From: Teichococcus aestuarii
Lineage (GTDB): Bacteria > Pseudomonadota > Alphaproteobacteria > Acetobacterales > Acetobacteraceae
Direction of reading: 5' to 3'
Assembly (NCBI RefSeq): GCF_003116135.1
Contig: NZ_PDOA01000010.1
Coordinates: forward strand, 1 to 64,000
DNA: 64,000 nt
Shown here: positions 58,037 to 63,658 of the stretch, piece after piece
Position numbering within the stretch: the stretch's first letter is position 1
Layout: each line of letters starts with the position of its first letter
The notes under the pieces: generated by a model
Database searches by the model: none
What the model was told of the DNA's origin: nothing
What the model saw: the letters and a program-made list of their open reading frames with translations, nothing else
Translations under genes and position numbers: made by a program

Positions 58037-58865
58037 CCAGCTCGCGCGAGCGGGCGGTGGCGGCGGCGATGGCCTCGGACATCAGCTTCGGCCAGGCCTC
58101 GGGCGCCATCAGTACGTTCAGCGCGCGCTCGGTGGTGCCCTTGGGGCTGGTGACGTTGACGCGGAGCTGCGCGGCATCCAGCGGGCTGGCGGCCAGCAGC
58201 GCGCCGGAGCCCGAGACGGTGCGCCGCGCCATGCGCCGCGCCAGTTCGGGCGGCAGCCCCTGCTCGATGGCGGCCTTCTCCAGCACCTCGGCCAGCAGGA
58301 ACACATAGGCCGGCCCGCCGCCGGAGACGGCGGTGACGGGGTCGATCAGCGCCTCCTCCTCCAGCCAGGCCACCTCGCCGATGGCGGCGAGCAGCGTGTC
58401 GGCCAGGGCGCGCTGCTCCTCCGTCACGCCGGGGCCGGCGAAGGCGGCGGTGAAGCCCTGGCGCACGGCGGCGGGGGTGTTGGGCATGGCGCGCACCACC
58501 CGAGCCTCGCCGCCCAGCAGCGCCGTCATGCCCGCCACCGTCTTGCCGGCCATGATGGAGACGAACAGCGCGCCGGCCCGCGCGAAGGCGGCGCAGGCGG
58601 GCAGCGCGGCCTCGGCCTGCTGCGGCTTGGTGGCCAGCACCACCACGGCGGGGGCGAAGCCGGCCGGGATGGACTCGACCCCGGCGCAGACCGTCACGCG
58701 GTCGGAGAAGGGGGCGACGGAGGCGGGCTGCGGCTCGACCACCACGGCCTGCCGCACGCCCCGCTCCAGCCAGCCCTCGAGCATGGCGCCGCCCATCTTG
58801 CCGCAGCCGACCAGCAGGATCGGCGGCAGGGGAGAGGCGGCGGGGGTGGGAGCCGGCACGGTCAT
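58029..58865 (-). CDS. proC: pyrroline-5-carboxylate reductase
   Basis: The 278-residue enzyme has the NAD(P)-binding motif ILLVGCGKMGGAMLEGWL, VVVLATKPQQAE, VVRAMPNTPAAVRQG, the family signature DPVTAVSGGGPAYVFLLAEVLEKAA, and AQLRVNVTSPKGTTERAL. It reduces pyrroline-5-carboxylate to proline, the last step of proline synthesis. Its start overlaps the stop of the YbjN gene by four bases (ATGA), so the two are coupled. The N-terminal 14 residues (TVPAPTPAASPLPP) are a Pro/Ala extension. Confidence 0.94.
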   Translation of the reverse strand: MTVPAPTPAASPLPPILLVGCGKMGGAMLEGWLERGVRQAVVVEPQPASVAPFSDRVTVCAGVESIPAGFAPAVVVLATKPQQAEAALPACAAFARAGALFVSIMAGKTVAGMTALLGGEARVVRAMPNTPAAVRQGFTAAFAGPGVTEEQRALADTLLAAIGEVAWLEEEALIDPVTAVSGGGPAYVFLLAEVLEKAAIEQGLPPELARRMARRTVSGSGALLAASPLDAAQLRVNVTSPKGTTERALNVLMAPEAWPKLMSEAIAAATARSRELAG

Positions 58866-59365
58866 GCCTCGCCCACGCAGTCCAGCATGGCGGCGGCCAG
58901 CGCCTCGGCCGGCGGCTTGCCGCCCCAGAGGACGAACTGGAAGGCGGGGAAGAAGCGCTCGCACTCGGTGATGGCGATGTCCACCATGTCCTCCAGGCTC
59001 TCGGCGCTGGCGCCGGGCGCGCCGCGCAGCAGCACGGCATGGCGGTAGACCGGCGCGCCATCCTCGCTGTCAATGCCGAAATGGCCGATCCAGAGCTTCT
59101 CGTTGGCGAGCGCCAGCAGCTCGTAGAGCGGGCCGCGCCGGTTGGATGGAACCTTCAGGTCGAAGGCGCAGGTGAAATGCATGGCGCTGATCTCCTGCGA
59201 CCAGGAGAAGAACAGGCCATAGTCGCACCACTTCCCCGGTGCCTCGACGGCCATCTCGCCATCGGAGCGGCGCTCGAACACCCACTCATTGGCGGCGACG
59301 ATCTGTTCCAGCACGTCGAGCGGATTGGCGGAACGGTCGCGGTCGGCGGTTTGCAAGCCGGACAT
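58862..59365 (-). CDS. YbjN domain-containing protein
   Basis: The 167-residue protein has the YbjN/type III secretion chaperone-like fold: NPLDVLEQIVAANEWVFERR, GKWCDYGLFFSWSQEISAM, HFTCAFDLKVPSNRRGPLYEL, ANEKLWIGHFGIDSEDG and VDIAITECERFFPAFQFVLW. Such proteins are linked to sensory and motility functions in enterobacteria and are regularly encoded before proC in alphaproteobacteria. AAGGAGG seven bases before ATG 59365 is one of the best ribosome sites in the window. A candidate promoter is marked just upstream. Confidence 0.88.
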   Translation of the reverse strand: MSGLQTADRDRSANPLDVLEQIVAANEWVFERRSDGEMAVEAPGKWCDYGLFFSWSQEISAMHFTCAFDLKVPSNRRGPLYELLALANEKLWIGHFGIDSEDGAPVYRHAVLLRGAPGASAESLEDMVDIAITECERFFPAFQFVLWGGKPPAEALAAAMLDCVGEA

Positions 59366-59442
59366 CGCGGCACCTCCTTCCCTATCGGGGGACAGGGCCA
59401 CCCAGGTCTTGGGTGAAGCCAGATGCCCACACCACAAAGGCT

Positions 59443-59472
59443 TGCATATCGCGGGCTCAAATGCCGTCGCAA
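59443..59472 (-). promoter_or_regulatory. candidate promoter for the ybjN-proC operon
   Basis: On the minus strand TTGCGA and TATGCA are spaced by 18 bases, about 80 bp before the YbjN start codon, in the least G+C-rich part of the 234-bp divergent gap. Confidence 0.4.
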
Positions 59473-59599
59473 GGGGCTTGGCCCGAGTCTGGCGGGGTGC
59501 CGGCGGATTTTCATCGCGCCGCAGCATGGGCGCCCCGGGCGGGGCTTCATCCGCCCGCCACCATGGGCAGCGCCGCGGCGCGGGGCTAGGGTCGCGCGC

Positions 59600-60514
59600 A
59601 TGTCCGCCGATTCCGCCCTGGGCCCCGCCGCCGCCCCCCGCCCCGCCAGCCGGGAGCGGGCGATCGGCCTGCTCTGCGCCTTCGCCGTCGTGCTGGTCTG
59701 GAGCGGCTTCGCCCTCTCCGGCCGGCTCTCCGCCCGCCAGGCCTTCACGCCCTGGGATGTCGGCGCGCTGCGCTACGCCGGCTCGCTGCTGGCGGGGCTG
59801 GCGCTGGTGGCGCGCTTCGGCTGGCCGCGGCTGCCCTGGCGGCGCGCGCTCGGGCTGATGGCGGGCGCCGCCTTCGGCTTCCCGCTCGCCGCCTACTGGG
59901 GCTTCAGCTTCGCCCCCGCCGCGCATGGCGGCGTCATCATGACCGGGCTGCTGCCCTTCGCCACGGCGCTGCTGGCGGCGCTGTTCCTGGGCGAGCGCTT
60001 CTCGCGCGGCCGCGCTCTCTCGCTCGGCGTGGTGGCGCTGGGCATCGGGCTGCTGGCCTCGGACACCTTCGGCACCTATCCCGGCGCCTGGCGGGGCGAC
60101 CTGATCTTCCTGCTCGGCTGTTTCTCCTGGGCGAGCTTCACCGTGCTGATCCGCCGCTGGGGCGTCTCGGCCATCACCGCCACCACGGTGCTCGCGCTCT
60201 ACCCGCCGCTGCTCTACCTGCCGGTGTGGTGGCTGGTGCTGCCCTCCAGCCTCGGCACGGCGTCGCCGGGGGCGATCGGCTTCCAGTTCTTCTACCAGGG
60301 CTTCATCGCCGTGGTGGTGGCGGGCTTCCTGTTCACCCGCGCCGTGGTGGCGCTGGGCGGCGGGCTGACCACCACCATCACCGCGCTTACCCCCGCGCTC
60401 GCCGCCCTGGCCGCCTGGCCGCTGCTGGGCGAGCCGCTGGGCCTGGCCGGGCTGGCCGGCGTCGCCATGGTCTCGGCGGGCATGGCGCTCGGCGTGCTCG
60501 GCGGGGGGCGCTGA
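59600..60514 (+). CDS. EamA/DMT-family membrane transporter
   Basis: The 304-residue protein has ten hydrophobic helices in two EamA repeats (LLCAFAVVLVWSGFALSGR; ... FATALLAALFLGERFSRGR; second half FYQGFIAVVVAGFLFTRAVVALGG to PLLGEPLGLAGLAGVAM). It belongs to the drug/metabolite exporter group. It shares the superfamily but little closer similarity with the transporter at 5845-6777. It is followed within three bases by the NadE-like gene, suggesting co-transcription, and may export a metabolite related to that protein. Confidence 0.85.
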   Translation: MSADSALGPAAAPRPASRERAIGLLCAFAVVLVWSGFALSGRLSARQAFTPWDVGALRYAGSLLAGLALVARFGWPRLPWRRALGLMAGAAFGFPLAAYWGFSFAPAAHGGVIMTGLLPFATALLAALFLGERFSRGRALSLGVVALGIGLLASDTFGTYPGAWRGDLIFLLGCFSWASFTVLIRRWGVSAITATTVLALYPPLLYLPVWWLVLPSSLGTASPGAIGFQFFYQGFIAVVVAGFLFTRAVVALGGGLTTTITALTPALAALAAWPLLGEPLGLAGLAGVAMVSAGMALGVLGGGR

Positions 60515-60517
60515 GCC

Positions 60518-61882
60518 GTGGCGGAGGCAATGCGCATCGCCCTGGCCGCGCCGCACCCGCGCCTGGGCGCGGTCGCGGCGAACGCCGCCGCCCTGCTGGA
60601 AGCCCGCGCCGGGGCCGCCCGCCAGGGCGCCGCGCTGCTGCTCGCGCCGCTGGCCTCGCTGAGCGGCGCGCCCGCCGCCGCCCTGGCCTGCTTCCCCGAT
60701 TTCCGCGCCGCCTGCGAGGTGGCGCTGGCGCGCCTCGCCGCCGCCACGGCGGATGGCGGGCCGGGGCTGGTGGTCGGCCTGCCCTGGGCGGAGGGCGCGG
60801 TGCTGCATGAGGGGCTGGCGCTGCTGGAGGGGGGGCGCGTCGTCGCCCGCCGCGCCTGCCACCGGCTTTTGGCGGCGCAGGAGGGCGTCTTCGCCCCGGG
60901 CCCGTCGCCCGGCCCGGTGGCCTTCCGCGGCCTGCGCCTCGGCCTGATGGCCGGCGCCGACCTCGACGACCCCGCCGTGCCCGAGACGCTGGCCGAGACG
61001 GGGGCGGAGCTGCTGGTCTCGCTCTCCGCCACCCCCTTCCGCCGCAAGCCGGCCGACCGTGCCATCGACCGCGCCGTGCCGCGCGTGGTGGAGACCGGCC
61101 TGCCGCTGCTGGCGCTGAACCTGCACGCCGCCCAGGGCGAGGCGATCTGGCCCGGCGGCGGCTTCGCCCTGAACGCCGATTGCGCCCTGGCCGCGCGCTG
61201 GCCGGAGGCGGCGGACGGGCTCTGGCTGACCGAATGGCGCGCCGGCCCGCAGGGCTGGGCCTGCGCCCCGCAGCCCCTGCCGCCGCTGGAGGCGGAGCCG
61301 GCACGGCTGTGGCGCGCTTTGGCCTTTGCCCTGGCCGAGGCGGTGGCGCGGGGCGGATTCTCCGGCGTGCTGGTCGATCCGGCGCAGGGCGAGGCGGCCG
61401 CGCTGTGCGCCGCCCTGGCCGCGCCGCTGCCGGTGTGGCCAGCGGAGGCCGCGGGCGCTGAGGCGGGCCATGCCCGCGAGGCCGCGCTCTGGGCCGAGGC
61501 GGAGGCGCGCCGCGCCCTGCTGGTGAACGCCGCCGACAAGACGGCGCTCGCCCTGGGCGAGGGCCAGCGCGCCGGCCACTTCGCCCCGCTGCGCGACCTG
61601 TTCCGCACCGAGCTGGCGGCCCTGGCGGTCGCCCACGGGCTGCCCGCCCCGCCGGGCGATGCCGGCACCGACGGGCTGCTGCGCGGCCTGCTGGAAGAGC
61701 ACAAGGGTGTGGACGCGCTGGCCGCCGGGGGATACGACCCCGGAGAGGTGCCGGAACTCTGGCGCCGCATGGCCGGGGCGGCCGGCTCCCGCCGCCGCGC
61801 GCCGGAGGGGCCCCGCCTCAGCCGCCACGGCTTCGGCCGCGACCCCATCGGCCATGGCTTCACCCACGCGACCACGGAATGA
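60518..61882 (+). CDS. NAD synthetase (NadE)-like pseudoenzyme with degenerate active sites
   Basis: The 454-residue protein aligns by eye along glutamine-dependent NAD synthetases. The nitrilase-like N-terminal half matches (RIALAAPHPRLGAVAANAAA, ETGAELLVSLSATPF, PRVVETGLPLLALNLHAAQG), and so does the C-terminal half (GFSGVLVD, AADKTALALGEG, HFAPLRDLFRTELA, GLLRGLLEEHKGVDALAAGGY, GPRLSRHGFGRDP). Every key site seems lost: the nitrilase Glu (PE) is Pro44-Leu45, Lys is Cys114, Cys is Gly146, and the P-loop SGGxDS is AQGEAA (289-294). About 65 residues after the P-loop and part of the KPPSAEL/DEDxLPPY region are absent; normal length is about 550. It cannot act as NAD synthetase as known. The intact frame and codon use suggest a maintained non-catalytic protein. 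GTG or ATG near 60518 is the start; 28 bp separate it from the next gene. Confidence 0.78.
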   Translation: MAEAMRIALAAPHPRLGAVAANAAALLEARAGAARQGAALLLAPLASLSGAPAAALACFPDFRAACEVALARLAAATADGGPGLVVGLPWAEGAVLHEGLALLEGGRVVARRACHRLLAAQEGVFAPGPSPGPVAFRGLRLGLMAGADLDDPAVPETLAETGAELLVSLSATPFRRKPADRAIDRAVPRVVETGLPLLALNLHAAQGEAIWPGGGFALNADCALAARWPEAADGLWLTEWRAGPQGWACAPQPLPPLEAEPARLWRALAFALAEAVARGGFSGVLVDPAQGEAAALCAALAAPLPVWPAEAAGAEAGHAREAALWAEAEARRALLVNAADKTALALGEGQRAGHFAPLRDLFRTELAALAVAHGLPAPPGDAGTDGLLRGLLEEHKGVDALAAGGYDPGEVPELWRRMAGAAGSRRRAPEGPRLSRHGFGRDPIGHGFTHATTE

Positions 61883-61910: not shown

Positions 61911-62312
61911 ATGAGCGGCGATTTCGACGACACCATCTTCGCCCCCAAGGGCGGCTTCAGCGTGGTGATCCGCGACCTTTCGGGCGGCAACGGCGCCGAG
62001 CCGGTGGAGATCGTCCGCAACTTCCCGACCCTGCTGCAGGCCAACGGCTTCGCCCGCCGCTATGTGCGCGACAGCATCGAGCGCTGCCGCGCCCCCGGCC
62101 TGACGCCGGACGAGGTGCTGGCCGCCTGGTTCGCCTTCGGCGAGGATGCCGAGGTGACGGGCGCCGAGGCGCAGGGCTGGACCAGCGGCGCCGAGATCCG
62201 CGACTTCGCCGCCACGCCGAGCCGCGACCCGGAGGAGCGCAACTGGCGCATCCTCGACCCCCGCCGGCTCGAGGATGACGCGGATGCGGGCGAGGAGGGG
62301 GAAGAGGGATGA
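61911..62312 (+). CDS. hypothetical protein, 133 residues, coupled to gltX
   Basis: I recognise no family. The soluble acidic product has an N-terminal beta-type stretch (DDTIFAPKGGFSVVIRDL, EPVEIVRNFPTLLQANGFAR), a helical section (RYVRDSIERCRAPGLTPDEVL, AWFAFGEDAEV), SGAEIRDFAA and a Glu/Asp-rich tail (EDDADAGEEGEEG). It starts 28 bp after the NadE-like gene and overlaps gltX by four bases (ATGA), so it is expressed with both. The closest motif thought is a small regulatory or stress adaptor, but nothing supports a specific role. Confidence 0.72.
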   Translation: MSGDFDDTIFAPKGGFSVVIRDLSGGNGAEPVEIVRNFPTLLQANGFARRYVRDSIERCRAPGLTPDEVLAAWFAFGEDAEVTGAEAQGWTSGAEIRDFAATPSRDPEERNWRILDPRRLEDDADAGEEGEEG

Positions 62313-63658
62313 AGCTCCGCTTCGCGCCCAGCCCCACCGGCTACCTGCATGTCGGCAATGCCCGCGTGGCGGTGGCCAACTGGCTGCTGGCCCGCCGCCA
62401 TGGCGGCCGCTTCGTGCTGCGCTTCGACGACACCGACACCGAGCGCAGCAAGCCGGAATATGCCGCCGGCATCGAGGAGGACCTGCGCTGGCTGGGCCTC
62501 GACTGGGACGAGAGCTTCCGCCAGTCCGACCGGCTCGACCGCTATGAGTTGGCGGCGGAGAAGCTGAAGAAGAGCGGCCACCTCTACCCCTGCCTGGAGA
62601 GCGAGGAGGAGCTGCGCTTCAAGCGCGACCAGCGCCAGAAGCAGGGCCGCCCGCCGGTCTATGACCGCGCCGCACTGAAGATGACGGCCGAGCAGCTGCA
62701 ACGCGCGCTGGACAACGGCAAGAAGCCCTACTGGCGCTTCAAGCTGGCCACCCGCACGGTGGAGTGGCAGGACGGCGTGCTGGGCCGCCGCCAGGTGAAG
62801 CTGCCGCCCATCTCCGACCCCGTGCTGATCCGCGCCGACGGCTCCTTCCTCTACACCTTCACCTCGGTGGTGGACGACCTGGAGACGGGCGTCACCGACA
62901 TCGTGCGCGGCGAGGACCACGTCACCAACACCGGCGTGCAGATCGACATCCTCGAGGCGCTGGGCGGCCGCCCGCAGGGCAGGCCGGGCGCCATCCGCTT
63001 CGCGCACCTGCCGCTGCTGACCGATGCCGATGGAGGGCCGCTCTCCAAGCGGCTGAACTCCATGGGACTGCGGCAATTGCGGCGGGACGGCATCGAGCCG
63101 GTGGCGCTGGTCGGCTATCTCGCGGCGCTCGGCTCCTCGCAGGACCCGGTGGCGGCGCCGCCGGCGGCGCTGGCGCCGGGCTTCGCGCTCGCCAACATGT
63201 CGCGCAGCACGGCGCGCTTCGACCCGACGCAACTGCTGGCGCTGAACCGCCGCCACCTGCACGGGCTGGACTTCGCCACGGTGCGGGACCGCCTGCCTGA
63301 AGGCGCCGACGAGACCTTCTGGCTGGCCATCCGCGGCAATCTCGACCTGCTGGGCGAGGCGCGGGACTGGTGGGAGGTGGCGCGCGGCGAGATCGCGCCG
63401 GCGCCGCAGCCGGAGGAGGCGGAGTTCCTCGGCGCCGCGCTGGAGACGCTGCCGCCCGAGCCCTGGAACGAGGAAAGCTGGAGCGCCTGGACCCGCGCCC
63501 TCGGCGCCGCCACGGGGCGCAAGGGCAAGGCCCTGTTCCTGCCGCTGCGCCGGGCGCTGACGGGTGCCGAGCACGGGCCGGAGCTGAAGCTCTTCCTGCC
63601 GGTGATCGGGCGGGAGCGGGCGGTGGCCCGGCTGCGGGCGGCGCGGGGCGGCGCCTAG
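62309..63658 (+). CDS. gltX: glutamate-tRNA ligase
   Basis: The 449-residue class I synthetase has the HIGH-like motif in FAPSPTGYLHVGNAR (HVGN 14-17), FVLRFDDTDTERSKPEYA, DIVRGEDHVTNTGVQ, FAHLPLLTDADGGPLSKRLNS (KMSKS-like LSKR) and a C-terminal anticodon-binding helical domain. It charges tRNA-Glu, and probably tRNA-Gln in organisms lacking GlnRS, for later amidation. Alphaproteobacteria often have two GltX copies; which one this is cannot be told here. The ATG overlaps the preceding gene by four bases. The GYLHVGNARVAVANWL start is typical of alphaproteobacterial enzymes. Confidence 0.95.
   Translation: MKLRFAPSPTGYLHVGNARVAVANWLLARRHGGRFVLRFDDTDTERSKPEYAAGIEEDLRWLGLDWDESFRQSDRLDRYELAAEKLKKSGHLYPCLESEEELRFKRDQRQKQGRPPVYDRAALKMTAEQLQRALDNGKKPYWRFKLATRTVEWQDGVLGRRQVKLPPISDPVLIRADGSFLYTFTSVVDDLETGVTDIVRGEDHVTNTGVQIDILEALGGRPQGRPGAIRFAHLPLLTDADGGPLSKRLNSMGLRQLRRDGIEPVALVGYLAALGSSQDPVAAPPAALAPGFALANMSRSTARFDPTQLLALNRRHLHGLDFATVRDRLPEGADETFWLAIRGNLDLLGEARDWWEVARGEIAPAPQPEEAEFLGAALETLPPEPWNEESWSAWTRALGAATGRKGKALFLPLRRALTGAEHGPELKLFLPVIGRERAVARLRAARGGA

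Follow-up and report, generated by a model that had tools for sequence, protein, structure and literature searches.

NAD synthetases carry a second Glu within the loop between the Lys and the Cys of their glutaminase site, and pseudoenzymes retained after gene displacement are a known general kind of protein. In PMC6946656 the second Glu of the Lys-Cys loop is described as supporting the triad, and in PMC7196632 the glutamine-dependent NadE proteins are divided into type 1, which are octamers, and type 2, which are dimers. PMC7196632 also reports that PII binds active dimeric NadE2Gln in other bacteria and relieves the NAD+ inhibition of type 2 NadE in three distant bacteria. No NadE-derived or nitrilase-fold retained pseudoenzyme was found in searches of the open-licence literature, and these yielded nothing on NAD synthetase in Roseomonas.

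The window analysed here, a stretch of 64,000 nucleotides of Teichococcus aestuarii, holds on its plus strand a degenerate short (type 2) NadE gene (60518-61882) that encodes 454 amino acids from a GTG start and whose frame, as had been predicted, stays open across all 454 codons. From family matches, we take the short gene of this family to be type 2 and the long gene to be type 1. The original prediction had also described a NadE-like protein with a two-domain layout, and this was borne out: the protein matches the NCBIfam model of two-domain NAD+ synthase NF010588 (2e-51, 175 bits), although under the family cut-off of 479, and a profile built from 15 degenerate sequences could be aligned, in the same domain order, with both domains of NadE2Gln (PRK13981; PDB 4f4h, residues 6-563, E 2.6e-84), so that homology to a two-domain NAD synthetase is beyond doubt. 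With Pfam, CN_hydrolase alone was matched (3.8e-5, barely above the cut-off), covering part of the nitrilase half, and NAD_synthase gave no match in the window protein. Structure prediction from two input sequences reached a mean pLDDT of 34.8.

What sets the window copy apart from NadE2Gln is that C-E-K and the P-loop have all been lost. Alignment with intact relatives confirmed the four losses at the residues first proposed: the codon of the catalytic Glu now encodes Leu45 (60650-60652), that of the Lys Cys114 (60857-60859) and that of the nucleophilic Cys Gly146 (GGC, 60953-60955), and the former P-loop SGGxDS, which is SGGIDS in intact relatives, reads AQGEAA (residues 289-294, 61382-61399), all on the plus strand. 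The Lys-to-Cys loop, in which NAD synthetases have the second Glu, is mostly absent, and inspection of the same alignment by eye found no catalytic residues relocated elsewhere in the protein. The nitrilase-fold half (60518-61294, plus strand, with an approximate border) is the more constrained one, both by dN/dS (w) and by kept sites. In the remnant of the synthetase half (61295-61879, plus strand) the predicted loss of residues after the P-loop was found by alignment and profile, but not with the proposed size of about 65: about 56 residues are gone there, and another 38 or so are missing ahead of the C-terminal segment, as counted against intact relatives, which leaves the protein about 100 residues shorter (454 versus about 554 aa). 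A 1001-aa antisense frame (58862-61867, minus strand) spans nearly all of nadE and the DMT gene upstream and runs into a minus-strand gene that is presumably YbjN-like. As a real gene this frame was rejected, since the plus frame has the NAD synthetase match, codon periodicity and the lowest dN/dS; its antisense part is apparently a side effect of the high GC content.

The distribution of both NadE forms was surveyed in 299 genomes of the same family. A short-like NadE was present in 148 of them (E 1e-25), a long NadE in 167 (E 1e-150) and both in 24. Catalytic columns were read in 150 short sequences, from 142 of the 148 genomes plus 8 others; six of the 148 (G178, G199, G235, G260, G275 and G303) were left out of the motif table, and one of the two short copies of G142 was read. 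Where no long NadE was found, the 118 short genes are all intact in whatever columns they contain (113 are complete and have SGGIDS, 2 have SGGVDS and 3 are partial). Genomes with a long NadE contributed 32 short sequences: 6 are intact as read, although that of G114 stops short of the P-loop, 24 carry Gly in place of the Cys and 2 are cut before this column; Gly is thus found in 24/30 copies with the column and an intact state in 6/30. Among the genomes examined, catalytic loss occurs only in those having a long NadE. Displacement of the short NadE by the long one is most likely, and genomes with both NadE intact are the expected intermediate of such a displacement. Of the 167 genomes with a long NadE, 143 gave no short-like gene at E 1e-25, although G023, which is counted among these, does contain one. 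This indicates that the short gene is dispensable in many genomes.

A PF02540 search of the T. aestuarii genome identified two places, one being a long NadE of 678 aa and the other, judging from its sequence, presumably GuaA. The long NadE, the normal nadE looked for elsewhere in the genome and the only intact one found there, is a separate gene on another contig, scores 1085 bits against PRK02628, the type 1 family that we take to be the M. tuberculosis type, and has E, K, C and SGGLDS all intact. Long NadE was found in 17/17 genomes of the genus, and in the 24 long sequences examined Glu, Lys and Cys were present in 24/24, as was SGGLDS. Two further frames, of 423 and 326 aa (G019:C13:7274-8152 and G014:C351:74730-75596), correspond to the nitrilase half of long NadE only, with 62-63% identity, and are possibly a freed glutaminase domain.

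Within the genus, 15 of the 17 genomes hold a short-NadE-like gene, whole or partial, and it precedes the acidic gene and gltX in 14 of these 15; in G012 a contig end falls inside the gene. All 15 frames are open to the extent of the assembly, four copies being cut by contig ends (G006, G011, G012 and G014), and the former Cys column is readable in 13. None of the 13 of 17 genus genomes readable at this column has an intact homologue, which would have pointed to recent decay, although sister species keep some single residues (G001, G003 and G013 have the Glu, and G002 has most of the P-loop). In G016 a frame resembling an IS transposase follows the DMT gene near a contig end (L274, 3955-4459), where nadE would begin, and loss of the short gene within the genus is possible in this case. 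Plain gene loss does not follow for G010, where the start of the gene is present and a run of N comes after it. Assemblies often break within degenerate nadE, as shown by the four contig ends and the run of N. The GC content of the window gene, taken in 150-base steps, is 0.78-0.85 over most of its length, higher than in its neighbours, and because of high GC and assembly breaks degenerate nadE may be under-represented in short-read genomes.

The copies with Gly differ in what else they have lost. In G176 and G223 the Cys has been lost and both Glu and Lys are kept, with SGGIDS and SGGIES as the respective P-loops. The other 22 copies have lost the Lys in 22/22 cases, and the Glu is kept in five of them (G001, G003, G013, G239 and G301) and replaced or missing in the rest; the P-loop is partly retained in a few degenerate copies, such as those of G002 and G014. 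The position of the former Cys is Gly in all 24, encoded by GGC, GGG or GGT. By simple arithmetic, seven single-base routes from TGC change the amino acid, one of which leads to Gly. A tree of gltX and the acidic protein places G176/G223 and G023 apart from the main degenerate group. AU tests, done on a quick tree and with groups defined once that tree was known, rejected a clade uniting the main group and G176/G223 (p 0.0007) as well as one uniting the main group and G023 (p 1.4e-5), and a single origin within the main group gave p 0.29. Provided that the linked gltX and acidic genes follow the history of nadE, Gly would have arisen at least three times. This residue could relieve a strained turn at the nucleophile and yet leave the fold in place; no description of such a turn in nitrilases was found in the open-licence literature searched.

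Selection on the degenerate copies was evaluated with pairwise codon models (GY94 with F3x4, own script). In four pairs within the genus, w was 0.141 (G000-G005), 0.101 (G003-G013), 0.185 (G002-G014) and 0.173 (G004-G007), and w=1 was rejected with likelihood ratios of 140, 184, 87 and 149, respectively. Further pairs gave 0.239 (G002-G001), 0.208 (G015-G006, 139 codons) and 0.129 (G012-G011, 202 codons). The range is 0.10-0.24 in genus pairs with usable dS and 0.06-0.24 for degenerate copies overall. Every pair tried rejected w=1, among them seven degenerate pairs whose dS was below 1 (w 0.08-0.21). Pairs with saturated dS, where w is meaningless, were excluded (e.g. G000-G003 and G000-G009), and in other genera whole-gene w was 0.06-0.14, several of these pairs having dS above 1.5, at which w is unreliable. 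As a frame control, the true frame had the lowest w of the six in 4/4 pairs and no stops; one antisense frame also reached 0.15-0.30, but with stops. In the same order of pairs, w was 0.114, 0.059, 0.101 and 0.078 for the nitrilase half and 0.172, 0.158, 0.236 and 0.267 for the synthetase half, the former being lower in 4/4 genus pairs; G301-G239 shows the opposite, with a lower w in the synthetase half. Values for gltX (0.03-0.06) and long NadE (0.03-0.07) in the same four pairs are exceeded about 1.6 to 6 times by degenerate nadE, and the nitrilase half has a w similar to that of the DMT gene (0.07-0.10), with a dN up to about three times higher.

These data bear on the possibility that the gene is a redundant copy in slow decay, its frame being open because stops are rare in a GC-rich genome. 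The degenerate gene does evolve faster than its neighbours, large parts of its synthetase half have been lost, and its GC1 and GC2 have been raised (GC1/GC2/GC3 of 0.86/0.61/0.94 in the window gene versus 0.68-0.70/0.46-0.49/0.87-0.92 in four intact copies). Together with a w above that of gltX and long NadE, this drift indicates that constraint is clearly relaxed, yet not neutral. In addition to the rejection of w=1 in every pair, no stop or frameshift was present in the copies read, the differences between G000 and G005 at the three codon positions are 44/63/125, and the Gly at the former Cys has been preserved through synonymous changes. Since the degenerate copies are under purifying selection, simple decay is improbable. 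The degenerate copies show two marks of a pseudoenzyme, namely true homology to an enzyme whose essential catalytic residues they lack and maintenance by selection on the protein, and the original reading of the gene as a maintained pseudoenzyme agrees with the recurrence of the losses within the genus and in other genera, the low dN/dS and the normal NadE elsewhere in the genome. Probably, the cell still benefits from the dead protein or from the position that it occupies in the operon.

Part of what has been maintained can be recognized in the nitrilase half. The 124 intact copies share 97 sites in this half with a conservation of 95% or more. Among these sites, 51 persist in 80% or more of the degenerate copies, and 21 have been lost, including Lys, Cys and parts of the Lys-Cys loop. 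The stretches kept include the strand before the former Cys and two helices, ETLAETGAE and ARVVETGLP, which we take to form the A surface through which nitrilases dimerize; among Gly copies, ETL is found in 24/24 and RVVE in 23/24. This conservation suggests that the fold and the dimer surface are the selected property, and the product is probably still a dimer. The purifying selection, together with a few residues that have become fixed in the degenerate copies (Trp247 and Pro255, for example), could also be read as signs that the protein is a new enzyme, with another active site in the old fold. However, Cys, Ser and Lys are all missing from the list of newly fixed residues, none of the 22 heavily degenerate copies with the Cys column retains the former Lys and most have lost the former Glu; we regard this explanation as very improbable.

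The genes around nadE had been proposed to form an undescribed module with it. Upstream lies an EamA/DMT-family transporter gene (59600-60514, plus strand; Pfam EamA 7.5e-18), whose start is uncertain, the ORF opening at 59423. Downstream are a gene for a small acidic protein of 133 aa (61911-62312, plus strand), without a match in Pfam or NCBIfam, and the glutamyl-tRNA synthetase gene gltX (62309-63658, plus strand; TIGR00464, 3e-96, over the cut-off), whose start is overlapped by 4 nt by the stop of the acidic gene. The order DMT-nadE-acidic gene-gltX also occurs, wholly or partly, around intact short nadE in related genera of the family, and the acidic gene is near gltX in 7/7 genomes checked where short nadE was not found. 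The linkage therefore predates the catalytic loss, and the idea of a module belonging to the pseudoenzyme was rejected. The acidic protein is encoded near gltX at nearly all loci examined and represents an orphan family associated with glutamyl-tRNA synthetase. In G223 (locus L151, 3523-4131), where nadE lost its Cys first, two separate segments of the upstream DMT gene are matched and its central part is absent, as if internally deleted.

This arrangement is the basis of the main rival explanation, in which nadE would be a translational hostage with no role of its own: its frame would remain open since a stop or frameshift would cut gltX expression, and its sequence would be kept only as folding and non-toxicity require. 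Both joints (nadE to acidic gene and acidic gene to gltX) are 4-nt overlaps in 16/23 heavily degenerate loci versus 0/7 intact ones, counting only loci with both joints measured and with starts set by a nearest-start rule, and the second joint is a 4-nt overlap in 22 of the 23; the intact locus of G032, with joints of -1 and -4, comes near to the double overlap. The internal nucleotide indels among seven pairs are all multiples of 3 (7/7), and lengths vary freely, from 413 to 531 aa in copies uncut by contig ends, as would be expected under such a scenario. Yet it accounts for open frames and not for the amino acid constraint, which is strong and uneven, with w of 0.06-0.11 in the nitrilase half, and the near-universal ETL and RVVE in Gly copies also speak against it. 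In the window itself a gap of 28 nt separates nadE from the acidic gene, and in G134 and both genomes in which Cys was lost first (G176 and G223) the chain to gltX is broken. The main degenerate group may represent one origin, in which case the overlap counts are not independent, and a second, distant gltX-like gene is present in the T. aestuarii genome, so the gltX at the locus may not be essential. We give this explanation a low, though not negligible, probability.

We lean towards the view that the long NadE displaced the ancestral NadE2Gln, and that the short copy survives under purifying selection as a non-catalytic nitrilase-fold protein that acts by binding. The catalytic job of the ancestral, glutamine-dependent and dimeric NadE2Gln would have passed to the long, type 1 NadE; once released from catalysis, the short protein would have had its nucleophilic Cys replaced by Gly first, and Lys and Glu would have gone later, as would the P-loop and loops in the synthetase half, to an extent differing by species. 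The retained product would be a non-catalytic binder with a nitrilase fold, under purifying selection. As in other retained pseudoenzymes, there is a homologue without catalytic residues, purifying selection on it and an intact replacement in the genome; the locus differs from them in that the same change of Cys to Gly recurs in separate lineages. It also remains, like intact NadE2Gln copies, at the same site beside the acidic gene and gltX. As for a binding partner, PII is a speculative suggestion made by analogy, and the most concrete candidate, since it relieves the inhibition of NadE2 elsewhere and two PII genes are present in the T. aestuarii genome. It is conceivable, but rather unlikely, that the dead copy, reached each time through the same replacement of Cys by Gly, would be a stable dimer that keeps contacts with PII and NAD+ and tunes NAD synthesis by the long NadE. 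If this were true, a regulatory subunit would have been made repeatedly from the enzyme it once was.

Homology-based annotation could register a second NAD synthetase that does not exist. The genomes offer a natural series of steps from enzyme to pseudoenzyme in which the replacing enzyme is identified, going from both NadE intact (6 genomes) through loss of the nucleophile first (2) to the loss of further sites, to a varying extent, in the 22 other copies with the column. The recurrent change from Cys to Gly makes it testable whether the first step towards a pseudoenzyme is selected for fold stability.
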